Part shown: one piece after another, positions 3,851 to 33,558 of the stretch | Position numbering within the stretch: position 1 is the first letter of the stretch | Layout of the letters: every line of letters begins with the position of its first letter | Position numbers and translations under genes: made by a program | Origin: Aureibaculum flavum | GTDB taxonomy: Bacteria; Bacteroidota; Bacteroidia; Flavobacteriales; Flavobacteriaceae | DNA: 64,000 bases | Direction of reading: 5' to 3' | NCBI RefSeq assembly: GCF_016406085.1 | Contig: NZ_JAEHFJ010000005.1 | Span: 62,001 to 126,000, forward strand | Notes under the pieces: model-generated | What the model saw: only the letters and a program-made list of their open reading frames with translations | Told to the model about the DNA's origin: nothing | Databases searched by the model: none

Positions 3851-3917
3851 AATGTTATTTTAAATGGTAACGATTTTAAATAAAAAAGATTGCAAAACTG
3901 ACTAAAGGAGTAGGATT

Positions 3918-3966
3918 ACTGCTTTAGCATTTTTAAAGAGGTTGCAATCAGTCAAATTAATCCTCT
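3918..3966 (-). promoter_or_regulatory. SAM-II-type riboswitch aptamer in the metK leader
   Basis: Read on the minus strand: AGAGG (3962-3966) pairs with CCTCT and encloses a loop with ATTTGACTGATTGCAA, followed by AAAAATGCTAAAGCAGT. This is the SAM-II order: P1, a loop ending in the conserved ATTGCAA, P1', then an A-rich stretch and GCTAAA. The loop ACTG is complementary to the CAGT directly after GCTAAAG, the place where SAM-II forms its pseudoknot (usually CC with GG), which looks like covariation. Downstream, TTGCAATC followed by six T (3882-3895) can pair with GATTGCAA of the aptamer, and CTAAAG can pair with CTTTAG, giving alternative folds. The class assignment is by recall of the consensus, not a model search. 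Confidence 0.75.
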
Positions 3967-4007
3967 GTATTATAAAATTGAATAATCAATTTATTCAATA
4001 ACGGGGG

Positions 4008-4640: not shown

Positions 4641-4669
4641 CAACGTAAGTTCAATTACTTATTGAAATT

Positions 4670-4780
4670 GTTATCAAGAAAGGCAGAGGGATAGACCCGT
4701 TGAAGCCTTAGCAACCCTTTAATCTTTAAAGAAGGTGCTAAATTCTACCAAAAAAGTTTTTAAGCTTTAGGATAGATAAC
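4670..4780 (+). promoter_or_regulatory. SAM-I (S-box) riboswitch upstream of metY
   Basis: Classic S-box core: GTTATC (4670-4675) then AAGAAAGGCAGAGGGA, GACCCGTTGAAGCCTTAGCAACC, GAAGGTGCTAAATTCTACC and the closing GATAAC (4775-4780), which pairs with the first arm. The P3/P4 variation differs from the second copy at 23754. A hairpin and T run directly after it (4787-4808) fit control by termination, so high SAM should turn off metY and the MetX-ThrA fusion gene. Confidence 0.95.
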
Positions 4781-4786
4781 ACAGAC

Positions 4787-23693: not shown

Positions 23694-23753
23694 AATTGGT
23701 TTTAAGTTATTTATTGCTTTATTTTGTGCCTAAGTATTAGTTCTTTAATATAT

Positions 23754-23907
23754 GTTATCAAGAAAGGTGGAGGGATTAGACCCTATGAAACCTTAGCAAC
23801 CCTTTTTCTGATTTCTCAGAATAAAGAAGGTGCTACATTCTACTCTTCCTATAACCATAGTTGTTTTAGGGTTTTTAGTGTCAAACTAAAAATTTAGGCT
23901 AGATAAC
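23754..23907 (+). promoter_or_regulatory. SAM-I (S-box) riboswitch upstream of the metH operon
   Basis: S-box core: GTTATC (23754-23759), AAGAAAGGTGGAGGGATTAG, ACCCTATGAAACCTTAGCAACC, GAAGGTGCTACATTCTACTC and closing GATAAC (23902-23907). A longer P4/lower region than the copy at 4670 is seen (the TAGTTGTTTTAGGG and AGTGTCAAACT segment). No clear terminator follows in the 90 bases before the start codon, so control may be translational or through a weaker hairpin. Confidence 0.95.
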
Positions 23908-29673: not shown

Positions 29674-29689
29674 ATGATATCTTGTGTCA

Positions 29690-30613
29690 ATGTCAGTTAA
29701 TGAAGCAAAAAATATAACCGGAATAAAGAACTTAGAGCTGCTTGCTAATCAAGTGGTAGAAGGTTTTATTACCGGTATACATAAAAGCCCATTTCATGGG
29801 TTTTCGGTCGAGTTTGCAGAACATCGCTTATATAATAAAGGAGAAAGTACGAAACATATAGACTGGAAATTATTTGCAAAAACGGATAAGCTATTTGTAA
29901 AAAGGTACGAAGAAGAAACAAATTTAAGATGTCAGCTGATTATAGATAATTCAGCTTCGATGCATTATCCTCAATTGAAAAATTCAGGATTAAAGCAATT
30001 GAATAAAATTGGGTTTTCAGTGGTAGCTTCAGCGGCCTTATTAGAGATTCTAAAGCGTCAACGTGATGCTTATGGGTTAAGTGTCTATTCTGATGTAAAT
30101 GAATATTACGCTCCAGCTAAGGGGAGTGAACGCCATAGGCGAATGTTATTGAATCAGCTCGAATTATTACTTGAGCAAGAGGCAAAGACCAAAACAAAGA
30201 CATTTACAGCATTGCATGAAATTGCAGACAAAATTCATAGACGCTCTTTAATTTTCTTATTTACTGACATGTTTCAGTCAGATATAGAAGAAGAGAGTTT
30301 ATTCGAAGCATTACGTCATTTAAAGTATAATAAGCACGAAGTAGTACTGTTTCATACGTTTGACGGTAAAAAGGAGCTAGATTTCGATTTTAGTAATACT
30401 CCAAAAAGATTTGTTGATGTAGAAACAGGTGAACATATTAATTTATATGCTGATACCGTAAAGGAAGGGTATAAGGATATTGTCGAAAAGTATTTTAATA
30501 ACTTGAAAATGAAATGTATGCAATATAAAATTGACTATGTTCCAGTAGATATTAATGAAGGTTTTGAGCAGGTTCTTACTACGTATTTAGTCAGTAGGAA
30601 AAAATTTTTATAA
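29690..30613 (+). CDS. DUF58-domain protein (vWA-like)
   Basis: A 307-residue protein from the ATG at 29690; a GTG two codons earlier is less likely. DUF58 signatures are HKSPFHGFSVEFAEHRLYNKGESTKHIDWKLFAKTDKLFVKRYEEE-type sequence near residues 30-75, then a MIDAS-like DNSASMHYP (D.S.S) near 85 and LFTDMF near 195, as in vWA folds. DUF58 proteins usually sit with MoxR ATPases and BatA-D genes; here none is adjacent, so it is an orphan at this locus. Possible role in protein assembly or stress at the membrane. Confidence 0.9.
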   Translation: MSVNEAKNITGIKNLELLANQVVEGFITGIHKSPFHGFSVEFAEHRLYNKGESTKHIDWKLFAKTDKLFVKRYEEETNLRCQLIIDNSASMHYPQLKNSGLKQLNKIGFSVVASAALLEILKRQRDAYGLSVYSDVNEYYAPAKGSERHRRMLLNQLELLLEQEAKTKTKTFTALHEIADKIHRRSLIFLFTDMFQSDIEEESLFEALRHLKYNKHEVVLFHTFDGKKELDFDFSNTPKRFVDVETGEHINLYADTVKEGYKDIVEKYFNNLKMKCMQYKIDYVPVDINEGFEQVLTTYLVSRKKFL

Positions 30614-30677: not shown

Positions 30678-30751
30678 GGTCTGGTAGTTCAGCTGGTTAG
30701 AATGCCGCCCTGTCACGGCGGAGGTCGCGGGTTCGAATCCCGTCCAGACCG
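30678..30751 (+). tRNA. tRNA-Asp (anticodon GTC)
   Basis: Complete cloverleaf of 74 bases: acceptor GGTCTGG/CCAGACC with discriminator G, D arm with AGCTGGTTA, anticodon stem CCGCC/GGCGG around the loop CTGTCAC with GTC at 30712-30714, and T arm GGTTCGAATCC. The CCA end is not encoded. It is followed by an AAAATTTCT/AGAAATTTT hairpin (30754-30779) and then a 38-bp terminator repeat. Confidence 0.98.
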
Positions 30752-30845
30752 CTAAAATTTCTAAAGTTCGAGAAATTTTAACGACGTTGTGTTGTTTTTA
30801 GTAGTTTACATATAAAACTACTCTAACTGAATAAGTTAGTCGATG

Positions 30846-30883
30846 AAAAGCTTCCCAAATCGGGATGCTTTTTTGTTTTATAG
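30846..30883 (+). repeat. Direct repeat copy 1: terminator downstream of tRNA-Asp
   Basis: A 38-bp sequence identical to 32112-32149. It is itself a terminator: AAGCTTCCC-AAATC-GGGATGCTT then T6, with one mismatched pair (T opposite T) inside the stem. The two copies keep the same mismatch, which argues for duplication and not for independent terminators. They bracket the HEPN-like gene. Confidence 0.9.
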
Positions 30884-31032
30884 AGGTTTTGTAAAACATT
30901 CAATTTTCATTTATATGGAGATTGTAAAACATAAATTTCTGATAATCTTTGAAGTCTTCTTACTGAAATAACTTATTCTGTTATCTTTTTTTACTAAACA
31001 TAAATTCTTAAATTTGGTTTAATAAATTAGGT

Positions 31033-32085
31033 ATGAATCAATATTGTGTATATTCAATTAATTATCCAGGTATTTTTAGTCTAAAACCTAATATTTGGTT
31101 TAAATTTTCCAATAAAATTGGAAGTTTTGCATTTTTTGTTAATGAGCCAAGAAAAGGATTAGTTATTAATGATCCAAACAATTCTATAGTTTGGGACAAG
31201 AAAGAGTCTAAATTAAAGAAAAGGATAGAAAAAATTGAAAAAGATAATCTTATTTTGGAACCAGTATTTAAAAGTGGAAATACTGGTTTTCTTTCAATAA
31301 TTGAAAGAGATTTTGAAAGTGGCAGAAGTTTCTTTGAAAAGGGAAGTACTAGACTTATTTTATTAATAGAAGAGTCTTGGGATATTGATAATTCTGCAAA
31401 AATTAAAGAATGTTTGAACTTTATATTTGTTATATATAATTCTAATATAATTAATAGCGTAATTCTTCCAATAGATGGTCATTATTTAAACGAATCAATT
31501 ATAATTTTTGAATCTAAATTGGAATTTGATATGGACTTTGATGAATTGATAGAGAGCCGTCCTGAACTAAATCTAACATTTGTTGCTAAGGAGACTAGAT
31601 TCGCAATGTCTAAATATGGAATAACGCTATCAGAGGTTCCAAAAATTGAAAAAAGTGATGGATTAAATCAAATTTCAGAGGAATATTTTGATGTATTTGA
31701 GCTTTACTCATTAGGATTAGTACAATTAAACTATTTTGGTAATTATAAATTGGCTTTATTGGAATGTTTTGTTGCGGTTGAAATGTTGGTTACACGTATT
31801 ACTGATAAAGTAAAGAAATCTAGGGGTATTTCAAATAGGAAAATTAATGATAATAAAAAATCCGTTGACCTTTCATATAAAATGGATATTGAATTAAAAC
31901 TATTTTTTAAATTTAATAAAATTGAAGAATCTTTATTAGGACAAATGACTCGAGCTAGAAGCCTTAGGAATAATGTAATGCATGAAAATACTTCAGTTGA
32001 TGAAAAAGAGGTGAGAGATTTAATAGTACATATCAATAAATTTATTTTTATGTTGGTTAAAAAAGAAACTATAAGTCAAAAATAA
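31033..32085 (+). CDS. HEPN-domain protein (candidate RNase), possible mobile defence gene
   Basis: A 350-residue protein with no signal peptide. Residues 1-210 are a mixed alpha/beta domain I do not recognise, resembling the N-terminal half of ApeA-like and similar HEPN proteins only in layout. The C-terminal 120 residues are helical and end with ARSLRNNVMHEN, where Arg312 and His317 form the R-X4-H motif of HEPN nucleases, preceded by a LALLECFVAVEMLVTRI helix. HEPN proteins with this motif are metal-independent RNases in phage defence and toxin systems. It is AT-rich, alone, and lies between two identical terminator copies next to tRNA-Asp, so gain by transfer is likely. Confidence 0.75.
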   Translation: MNQYCVYSINYPGIFSLKPNIWFKFSNKIGSFAFFVNEPRKGLVINDPNNSIVWDKKESKLKKRIEKIEKDNLILEPVFKSGNTGFLSIIERDFESGRSFFEKGSTRLILLIEESWDIDNSAKIKECLNFIFVIYNSNIINSVILPIDGHYLNESIIIFESKLEFDMDFDELIESRPELNLTFVAKETRFAMSKYGITLSEVPKIEKSDGLNQISEEYFDVFELYSLGLVQLNYFGNYKLALLECFVAVEMLVTRITDKVKKSRGISNRKINDNKKSVDLSYKMDIELKLFFKFNKIEESLLGQMTRARSLRNNVMHENTSVDEKEVRDLIVHINKFIFMLVKKETISQK

Positions 32086-32111
32086 ATAATTCAATTTTTT
32101 TAAATTATTAT

Positions 32112-32149
32112 AAAAGCTTCCCAAATCGGGATGCTTTTTTGTTTTATAG
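32112..32149 (+). repeat. Direct repeat copy 2: terminator downstream of the HEPN gene
   Basis: Identical over 38 bp to 30846-30883; 1266 bp separate the two starts. The flanking bases differ on both sides. Here it ends the HEPN transcript. Confidence 0.9.
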
Positions 32150-32364: not shown

Positions 32365-33558
32365 TTGAAAAAATATATTCCAGTACTATTAATAGCCCTA
32401 ATAGTTGTTTTGAGCAGCTTTATGCTAGGTGCTAAGCCTGAATCTGCAAAGAAAGAAACAATTGAGCCTGTAGTAGTATTAGCGACTCCTATTGAAAAGG
32501 AAAGTTCCCTGTTAATTGAACACTATCCTCAAGTAGCAACAAAAAAAGTAAGTCATAAATTAGATTCTTTATTACAGCGTATTAATAAAAGGCAAGATTT
32601 TAATGGATCATTGTTAGTAGCAAAGCATGGGAAAATATTGTATGACAATTATGTCGGTTATGCAGATTTTAATAAGAAAGCACCAGTAAATGAAGCTTCT
32701 ATATTTCAATTAGCCTCAGTCAGTAAACAATTCACTGCAGCAGCTATAATGTTATTGTTTGAACGGAATCAAATTCAACTTACAGATACTGTAAATAAGT
32801 ATTTTCCTCATTTTCCTTATGAAAATATAACAATTAAAAACCTTCTAAATCATACGTCTGGCTTGCCGAGGTATTTTTGGGTTGCAGAGCATGAATGGAA
32901 TCATAAAAAAGCACCAACGAATAGTGAAATGATGGAATTACTTGAATCAAGTAAAGCTCAACGATATTTTAAACCAGGACGGAATTTTGATTACTCTAAT
33001 ACAGGTTATTTTGTATTGGCATCTATAGTTGAAAAAGTTTCTGGTAAAAGTTTTAGTGCATTTGTGAAAAAGAATATTTTTGAACCATTAGAGATGAACG
33101 ATTCTTTTGTCCTTAGTTCTGAAAATGATGCTACTATAGAAAATCATTTAGACGGTTATAGGGTATATAGAGGTTATAAACATCTAAAAATTAATACTAC
33201 AGTTAATGATGCTATTGTAGGTGATAAAAATGTTTATTCTTCCAGTATAGATTTACTGAAGTGGACACTTGGCTTAAATAGTGGAAAACTACTTTCAAAA
33301 GAATCCGTAAACCTAATGTATTCTAAAGGAGAAACAATTTCCGGAAAGAAAATTCCTTACGGTTTTGGCTTAAGAATAAACACTGAAGATCCAAATATAA
33401 TTTATCATTATGGTAAATGGAATGGGTTTAGTACGGGACTTACCCAGTATCAAAAAGACGATTTGGTAGTCATTATTCTAGAACATACCAGTTACAGAGC
33501 TATGTCATCGTTGAATAAAAAAGTAAAGACAATTATTTCAGAAAATTTCCATTCTTAA
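32365..33558 (+). CDS. Serine hydrolase, beta-lactamase class C-like, exported
   Basis: A 397-residue protein with TTG start at 32365, the only start that gives the signal helix KKYIPVLLIALIVVLSSFML. The catalytic motifs of class C/penicillin-binding-like serine hydrolases are S118-V-S-K121 (ASVSKQF), YSNTGY (Y-x-N) near 210 and HYGKWNGF (the H/K-x-G box) near 350. FNGSLLVAKHGKILYDNYVGYAD and LLNHTSGLPRY are family blocks. Mature protein likely in the periplasm or anchored by its N-terminal helix. The substrate could be peptidoglycan peptides or esters; true beta-lactamase activity is not implied. Confidence 0.9.
   Translation: MKKYIPVLLIALIVVLSSFMLGAKPESAKKETIEPVVVLATPIEKESSLLIEHYPQVATKKVSHKLDSLLQRINKRQDFNGSLLVAKHGKILYDNYVGYADFNKKAPVNEASIFQLASVSKQFTAAAIMLLFERNQIQLTDTVNKYFPHFPYENITIKNLLNHTSGLPRYFWVAEHEWNHKKAPTNSEMMELLESSKAQRYFKPGRNFDYSNTGYFVLASIVEKVSGKSFSAFVKKNIFEPLEMNDSFVLSSENDATIENHLDGYRVYRGYKHLKINTTVNDAIVGDKNVYSSSIDLLKWTLGLNSGKLLSKESVNLMYSKGETISGKKIPYGFGLRINTEDPNIIYHYGKWNGFSTGLTQYQKDDLVVIILEHTSYRAMSSLNKKVKTIISENFHS

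Follow-up and report, generated by a model that had tools for sequence, protein, structure and literature searches.

A putative HEPN-type gene between two terminator copies at a tRNA-Asp integration hotspot of Aureibaculum flavum

The window analyzed here is a stretch of 64,000 nucleotides that forms part of contig 35 in the 4.75-Mb genome of Aureibaculum flavum (G000; the genomes compared with it also carry G numbers). Within it, an intact tRNA-Asp gene is followed by a conserved structured RNA, a gene for a probable HEPN-type protein, and a gene of the serine beta-lactamase family. The features of this locus are listed in Table 1, together with riboswitches found elsewhere in the window. The promoter-like element ahead of the HEPN gene was recognized by the consensus TAnnTTTG, as quoted in the available text of PMC9723704.

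Table 1. Features of the tRNA-Asp locus and riboswitches in the window (positions are those of the window)
Feature	Position	Strand	Remarks
SAM-II riboswitch	3914-3971	-	
SAM (S-box) riboswitch	4668-4782	+	
SAM (S-box) riboswitch	23752-23857	+	
DUF58 gene, conserved left neighbor	29684-30613	+	Anchor for locating the site in relatives
tRNA-Asp (GUC; gtc), intact	30678-30752	+	Attachment gene of the hotspot; ARAGORN; Rfam RF00005, 70 bits
Structured RNA of ~90 nt: 5' GTTGTGTTGTTTT, hairpin 1, hairpin 2, terminator	30785-30874	+	Covariance model R1; covariation
Left terminator copy	30846-30883	+	3' end of the conserved RNA
Leader of the inserted unit	30884-31032	+	Starts AGGTTTT, like the post-terminator DNA in G003
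TAnnTTTG promoter-like element	31009-31016	+	Starts 24 bp before the HEPN ATG; also in the G001 copy
Probable HEPN-type gene, 350 aa, R312-N-x3-H317	31033-32085	+	GC 25.6%; weak HEPN-family matches, below cut-off
Right terminator copy	32112-32149	+	26 bp past the HEPN stop; downstream flank is that of the G002 empty site
Serine beta-lactamase-family gene (PF00144)	32365-33558	+	

The two terminator copies form an exact direct repeat of 38 bp with a spacing of 1266 bp, and the flanks outside the repeat differ. One fold is predicted for both copies, a hairpin with a T run in which one internal T.T pair is mismatched (-13.5 and -12.2 kcal/mol; z -2.1 and -3.1), and their identity extends 9 bp beyond the T run. 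These results confirm the preliminary description of this DNA, which had reported two identical copies with the same mismatch downstream of tRNA-Asp. The terminator is not scattered through the genome. A search of G000 alone with the pattern AAAAGCTTCCCNNNNCGGGANGCTTTT, which is blind to copies with another loop length, gave only two matches in 4.75 Mb, both at this locus and flanking the HEPN gene, and a reversed control gave none. A chance origin of the repeat is ruled out by its exact 38-bp length, by the presence of two copies genome-wide, and by the empty site in relatives described below. Transposition with target duplication was rejected on the length of the repeat, since 38 bp exceeds any transposon target duplication known to us.

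The shared mismatch had been taken earlier as a sign that the terminator was duplicated on insertion. Duplication with insertion is supported, but the mismatch is not peculiar to it: among 15 genus sequences, the same position is T.T in 11, C.T in three, and G.T in one. Because this place is mismatched across the genus, the T.T pair of the window copies was inherited from the native terminator. The 38-bp repeat is the 3' end of the longer conserved RNA, the remainder of which is present on the left side only. No recognizable tRNA 3' end or hairpins precede the right copy, unlike the arrangement in G014, G016, and G256.

Between the copies there is a single plus-strand open reading frame of at least 60 amino acids, which is the HEPN gene; the other listed frame (97 amino acids, minus strand) is nested inside it. 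No integrase was found in this interval, nor any integrase trace left in the insert. The listing of reading frames and the motif thus agree with the original account of one HEPN-type gene, with R312-x4-H317, and no integrase between the copies. The leader could be aligned, with gaps, to that of the HEPN copy in G001.

The encoded protein is probably of the HEPN type and a putative RNA-cutting defense protein. Its motif, R312-N-N-V-M-H317, has R312, N313, and H317 invariant in all four aligned sequences (the window protein included; the most distant is 25% identical). This agrees with the HEPN rule given in the available text of PMC3710099, R-x4-6-H with a polar residue following the R. Searches of Pfam and NCBIfam gave no match above cut-off for the window protein, for which HepT appears below cut-off at E 0.011. 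Two of the four members match DUF4145 (E 0.13-0.3) and one matches HEPN_Swt1 (E 0.065), all below cut-off, and the NCBIfam matches of the three other members are unrelated and at chance level. None of the PADLOC models matches the window protein at E 1, and HEC-08 reaches E 0.019 in one of the four members. A PDB sequence search returned two chance-level matches only, and the N-terminal ~230 residues have no significant match in the libraries searched.

Homologues of this protein were found in G001 (72% identity), G300 (41%), and G060 (26%). The family, order, and phylum samples, which overlap and each count the window's own genome, gave tallies of 3/397, 2/395, and 1/395, with no further homologues beyond those known. 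None was found in plasmids, phages, or viral contigs, or in an initial scan of genome contigs. Two of the three homologues adjoin restriction or other defense-type genes. The G300 homologue lies next to a type IIG restriction gene, inside an array of six attC-like elements of 132-134 nt (recognized by eye), and the G060 homologue has neighbors of other kinds and no tRNA across 14 kb. The G300 array (L024; contig 2, 7969 bp) has genes between its six elements, including the HEPN homologue. Among the repeats at the window gene, by inspection, no attC-type element stood out. A defense role is what would be expected from the motif and the neighbors, and most likely the protein would be an RNase that needs no metal and responds to phage infection. 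Phage defense had been suggested at the outset. The neighbors of two of the three homologues speak for it, whereas the PADLOC result and the below-cut-off Pfam and NCBIfam matches do not, and we keep this role as an expectation.

The RNA behind tRNA-Asp is widespread. Covariance model R1 scores the window RNA at 107 bits (contig positions 92785-92874), a sequence that is among the 15 used to build the model. R1 matches are present behind tRNA-Asp in 15 of 17 genus genomes; the two others, G006 and G007, have contigs that stop within the tRNA or right at it. At E ≤0.001, the model matches 43 of 249 family genomes, two of them from the window's own genus. When 28 loci outside the genus were fetched, tRNA-Asp was present in 14, and several of those without it have a TAnnTTTG-like sequence upstream (by eye). 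The RNA may be a gene of its own, because a separate terminator-like stretch (by eye) lies between tRNA-Asp and the RNA in G256 and G023.

Covariation was assessed in two alignments. The 15 genus sequences show double changes in seven of 24 pairs and score 0.145 versus 0.107 for shuffled alignments, none of 500 of which reaches that value, but the structure slid by one column still scores 0.127 and the pair-type count is not above the shuffles. With 34 matches (30 outside the genus and four genus loci), double changes occur in 18 of 24 pairs and the score is 0.490 versus 0.163, with slid versions at 0.116 or less, in an alignment that was fitted to the model and hence is biased toward its structure. 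Only 62% of the hairpin 2 cells in this alignment are paired. Conservation within the RNA is highest in the terminator. Besides the tRNA, an Rfam search of the region gave no match at gathering score for the conserved RNA; the best sub-threshold match, Phe_leader (38.7 of 55 bits), lies over the right terminator. The RNA may or may not be Rfp18, a Flavobacterium small RNA with at least three stem-loops. Both are conserved in flavobacteria and have at least three stem-loops, and they are likened here by description, from the available text of PMC9723704. Since the RNA behind tRNA-Asp is widespread, covaries, and has no Rfam match that reaches the gathering score, both what it does and what its disruption would cost can now be put to the test.

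The site was located in all 17 genus genomes by way of the DUF58 neighbor. In G001 and G002, a single terminator copy stands at the exact place after tRNA-Asp, with no HEPN gene there; this is the empty site that the preliminary description had proposed looking for in close relatives. The G002 terminator continues unbroken into the right-hand flank of the window, and that of G001 continues into a related flank with extra bases. From the start of the tRNA to the end of the repeat (206 bp), G000 has no mismatches to G002 and two to G001, one of which is the last base of the repeat. The upstream region of G000 is 95.3% identical to that of G001 and 93.6% identical to that of G002. A single copy in these relatives is not the whole story, since in both the beta-lactamase-family gene is followed by a second one.

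The HEPN gene is found in two of the 17 genus genomes (G000 and G001), or two of 11 among the well-complete ones, six of the 17 being less than 90% complete. It is single-copy in G000. Vertical inheritance as a genus gene was rejected on this distribution. Its GC content is the lowest among the 49 reading frames of at least 150 amino acids (mean 31.2%, standard deviation 2.7). Composition and distribution together indicate that the gene is an insertion. Parsimony alone has no power to separate insertion from loss, because the three genomes are almost equally distant from each other (pairwise identities of 95.55%, 95.01%, and 95.59%, with some tRNA clusters counted more than once).

Fifteen tRNA-Asp loci of 1.5 to 16 kb each were examined, G006 and G007 having been dropped because their contigs end. 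Six of these (G000, G001, G002, G013, G014, and G016) contain additional copies of the RNA or of its terminator. The extra copy is a terminator only in G000, lies behind the beta-lactamase-family gene in G001 and G002, and is 9.2 kb away in G014 and 10.8 kb away in G016; G013 has two. In G001, G002, and G013, a copy of the terminator or of the 3' part of the RNA lies behind the beta-lactamase-family gene, and none was found there in G000. The copies around the G002 gene are identical over 37 bp, and in G013 units that end in terminator or RNA copies are stacked.

Integrase islands were also found at this site. In G016, tRNA-Asp and the RNA are followed by a 10.8-kb island and then by the tRNA 3' end and the RNA again, with an integrase adjoining the right repeat. 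This island therefore has the direct repeat with tRNA 3' end and the terminal integrase that mark tRNA-integrated islands. Its cargo includes RteC, a helix-turn-helix gene, SIR2, PDC-S11, and type II restriction genes, and its integrase matches PF13102 above cut-off and PF00589 below. The right RNA copy of G016 is identical to that of G014 and the left copy differs, which suggests that the left copy came with the element. An integrase 80% identical to that of G016 lies on another contig in G008, where it adjoins an RNA copy that has a tRNA-like tail. In G012, a second kind of integrase directly follows tRNA-Asp and the RNA. In G256, from another genus, this second kind of integrase adjoins tRNA-Asp in a 19-kb stretch that also holds a type III restriction gene and is followed by a second module; the 164 bp stretching from the tRNA 3' end across the RNA do not differ between the two modules. 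Integrases distantly related to these occur in G000 itself (34% identity to that of G016; E 1.1e-58 to that of G012).

A search with the G012 integrase gave matches in 114 of 299 family genomes. Among 30 loci fetched from the best of these matches, a tRNA was present in 24 (Asp in seven, Asn in nine, Met in four, and others in four), the integrase lay within about 1.5 kb of tRNA-Asp in seven, and the RNA was found in eight (E ≤0.1). These results mark tRNA-Asp with its trailing RNA as an integration hotspot. The attachment site had been placed just past the tRNA gene, a placement that has to be refined. In G014, G016, and G256 the repeat begins within the tRNA 3' end and covers the whole trailing RNA; the right side in G000 has the bare terminator. 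No match to three integrase queries was found between the RNA copies of G014. These identical tRNA-end and RNA copies enclose two very long RHS/YD-repeat-like genes (by eye; L156).

Other repeats at tRNA genes were observed in the same genomes. Behind tRNA-Phe in G000 there are two tandem units of ~378 bp (L079; G000:C20:187400-191600), each with a small GIY-YIG nuclease-like reading frame (by eye), a partial tRNA-Phe 3' copy, and a terminator copy. The partial tRNA-Phe copies carry an inserted TCCCGA...TCGGGA hairpin. Upstream of tRNA-Asp in G010, G012, and G016 (L011, L014, and L016), similar small reading frames (by eye) lie by partial tRNA-Asp 5' copies with the same kind of hairpin, which also occurs within the terminator loop of the far RNA copy in G008. 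At tRNA-Cys (L094) and tRNA-Leu(tag) (L097) of G000, tandem repeats of ~88-bp and ~125-bp units include the tRNA 3' end, and the ~125-bp unit includes a terminator.

An integrase island of 15 kb in tRNA-Met has the HEPN copy of G001 as its last gene. This island has a direct repeat with the tRNA 3' end and an integrase at one end, and it also holds an NsnA/PD-T4-2-like gene. At the same site, G000 and G002 have an intact tRNA-Met. To the left of the G001 copy there is a decayed flank that resembles a tRNA-Asp tail, the RNA, and half a terminator. Its alignment score of 50 was reached by none of 2000 shuffles (mean 21.7, maximum 35). Among the tRNA flanks compared, tRNA-Asp ranks first and the next scores 33; the best match, at 66, is to G010. 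The homology is decayed, with an nhmmer E of 0.029 that falls below the inclusion threshold. A second protein with R-x4-H (RNKVQH) and no family match above cut-off is encoded in this island (L070:2681-3625).

The conclusion that the HEPN gene is foreign and was inserted with duplication at a tRNA-linked attachment site, as the preliminary description had proposed, is supported by the empty sites, the foreign GC content, the occurrence in two of 17 genomes, and the integrase islands at tRNA-Asp. The explanation that we favor, and consider reasonably probable, is that the gene is cargo of a tRNA-Asp element from which the integrase and most of the right attachment site have disappeared. Integrase elements would recombine at tRNA-Asp, each bringing a tRNA 3' end, an RNA, and a terminator of its own. 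As the anatomy of G016 and G256 suggests, integration would restore both RNAs on the left and push the native 3' module rightward. In G000, such an element or part of it would have arrived with the HEPN gene adjoining its left module, and the integrase, other cargo, and right module except for the terminator would then have been lost. The remnant would be a self-contained transcription unit of promoter-like element, HEPN gene, and terminator, and the right terminator was perhaps retained because it ends the HEPN transcript.

Several observations beyond the empty sites and the composition fit this remnant explanation, namely the integrase islands at tRNA-Asp (G016, G256, G008, and G012), the accreted RNA or terminator copies in G001, G002, and G013, and the second HEPN copy with its tRNA-Asp-tail and RNA-like left flank. 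Other observations speak against it. The right copy is a 38-bp terminator alone, unlike the full right modules of G014, G016, and G256, and a larger element with the HEPN gene at tRNA-Asp was not found among the loci examined. The insert shows no trace of an integrase, the G001 flank homology is decayed, and the G016 integrase is below the PF00589 cut-off. Moreover, the 206-bp left module is the native one of G002, whereas the left and right modules of G016 differ. Because of this identity, the crossover may have occurred inside the terminator, through RecA or an integrase acting in trans, or the donor may have been a close relative.

A RecA-type recombination event, which we regard as unlikely, could have brought the terminator and HEPN DNA from the tRNA-Asp locus of a related strain through at least 38 bp of homology, with the terminator duplicated. 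The insert begins with AGGTTTT after the terminator, like the native flank of G003, the module from tRNA to terminator is unchanged, and a flank of the tRNA-Asp type is found at the G001 copy too. However, 38 bp is a short homology for RecA, and either a circular donor or an end-joining step would be needed to duplicate the terminator.

The HEPN gene could instead be ancestral, with recombination between the two terminators having removed it in G001 and G002. The empty site observed is what this event would leave behind, and the near-equal distances among the three genomes are consistent with it. Two losses, or one loss plus inheritance, would be required, and the foreign composition, the lack of a match in 15 of 17 genus genomes, and the location of the G001 copy elsewhere make this history quite unlikely. 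It differs from the remnant explanation in timing only and is compatible with it.

No more probable is a one-gene mobile unit, a 1266-bp circle of HEPN gene and terminator that would move in and out at the RNA terminator with an integrase supplied in trans by resident islands. The exact 38-bp duplication with breakpoints at the terminator, the native left module, the G002 beta-lactamase-family gene that also lies between terminator copies, the stacked units of G013, and the integrases of G000 could all be accommodated in this way. Yet the repeats next to integrases in G016 and G256 extend into the tRNA 3' end, a bare terminator was never seen as the repeat of an integrase element, and the HEPN gene is single-copy in G000. 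The preliminary description had spoken of a minimal mobile cassette. As an autonomous unit this finds no support, since no mobility gene lies inside and a larger integrase element is the better-evidenced source. A broader form, which we think quite unlikely, is a cassette dock at which units of promoter, gene, and terminator copy would be moved in trans by resident integrases specific for tRNA-Asp and stacked with the newest nearest the tRNA. Finally, it is very improbable that the terminators are alike through selection or gene conversion unrelated to insertion, since two relatives have an empty site and identity runs 9 bp beyond the T run, even though the terminator is the RNA's most conserved part.

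If the remnant explanation is correct, a probable defense gene can remain as an ordinary-looking chromosomal gene after its vehicle is gone, while the landing site is still legible. The tRNA-Asp gene and its trailing RNA serve as a landing site across several genera of one bacterial family, and the mobile elements at tRNA-Asp bring along a host small RNA in full.

With respect to known systems, the protein is like ApeA and DUF4145-type HEPN RNases, as presented in the available text of PMC3710099, in that a C-terminal R-N-x3-H follows a differing N-terminal part and homologues are near restriction genes; unlike them, it has no profile match above cut-off. The inserted unit differs from tRNA-integrated islands, since it lacks both a right repeat with the tRNA 3' end and a terminal integrase. 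A closer likeness is to cis-mobilizable elements (CIMEs), which the available text of PMC5704250 describes as decayed ICEs or IMEs with attL and attR, along with their decay and accretion. As in a CIME, integration and transfer genes are absent (the one plus-strand reading frame, 350 amino acids, is HEPN-type), direct repeats lie at a tRNA site, and the unit stands in tandem with other decayed units where integrases land. Integrase elements that could serve as a source occupy the same site in G016, G256, G012, and G008, and among the genus genomes searched the HEPN gene was found only in G000 and G001. Unlike a CIME, the unit has one gene and retains a complete module on the left only, the right repeat being the 38-bp terminator with no tRNA 3' end before it. 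We call the unit a CIME-like remnant and do not file it as a CIME, since its right attachment site is incomplete. The tandem arrangement also resembles the ssrA islands of Dehalococcoides, which, according to the available text of PMC3146451, stand in tandem behind a single-copy RNA gene and are each bounded by a direct repeat of the RNA 3' end. Those islands use tmRNA and a serine recombinase, whereas here the site is tRNA-Asp with its trailing RNA and the integrases are of the tyrosine type.
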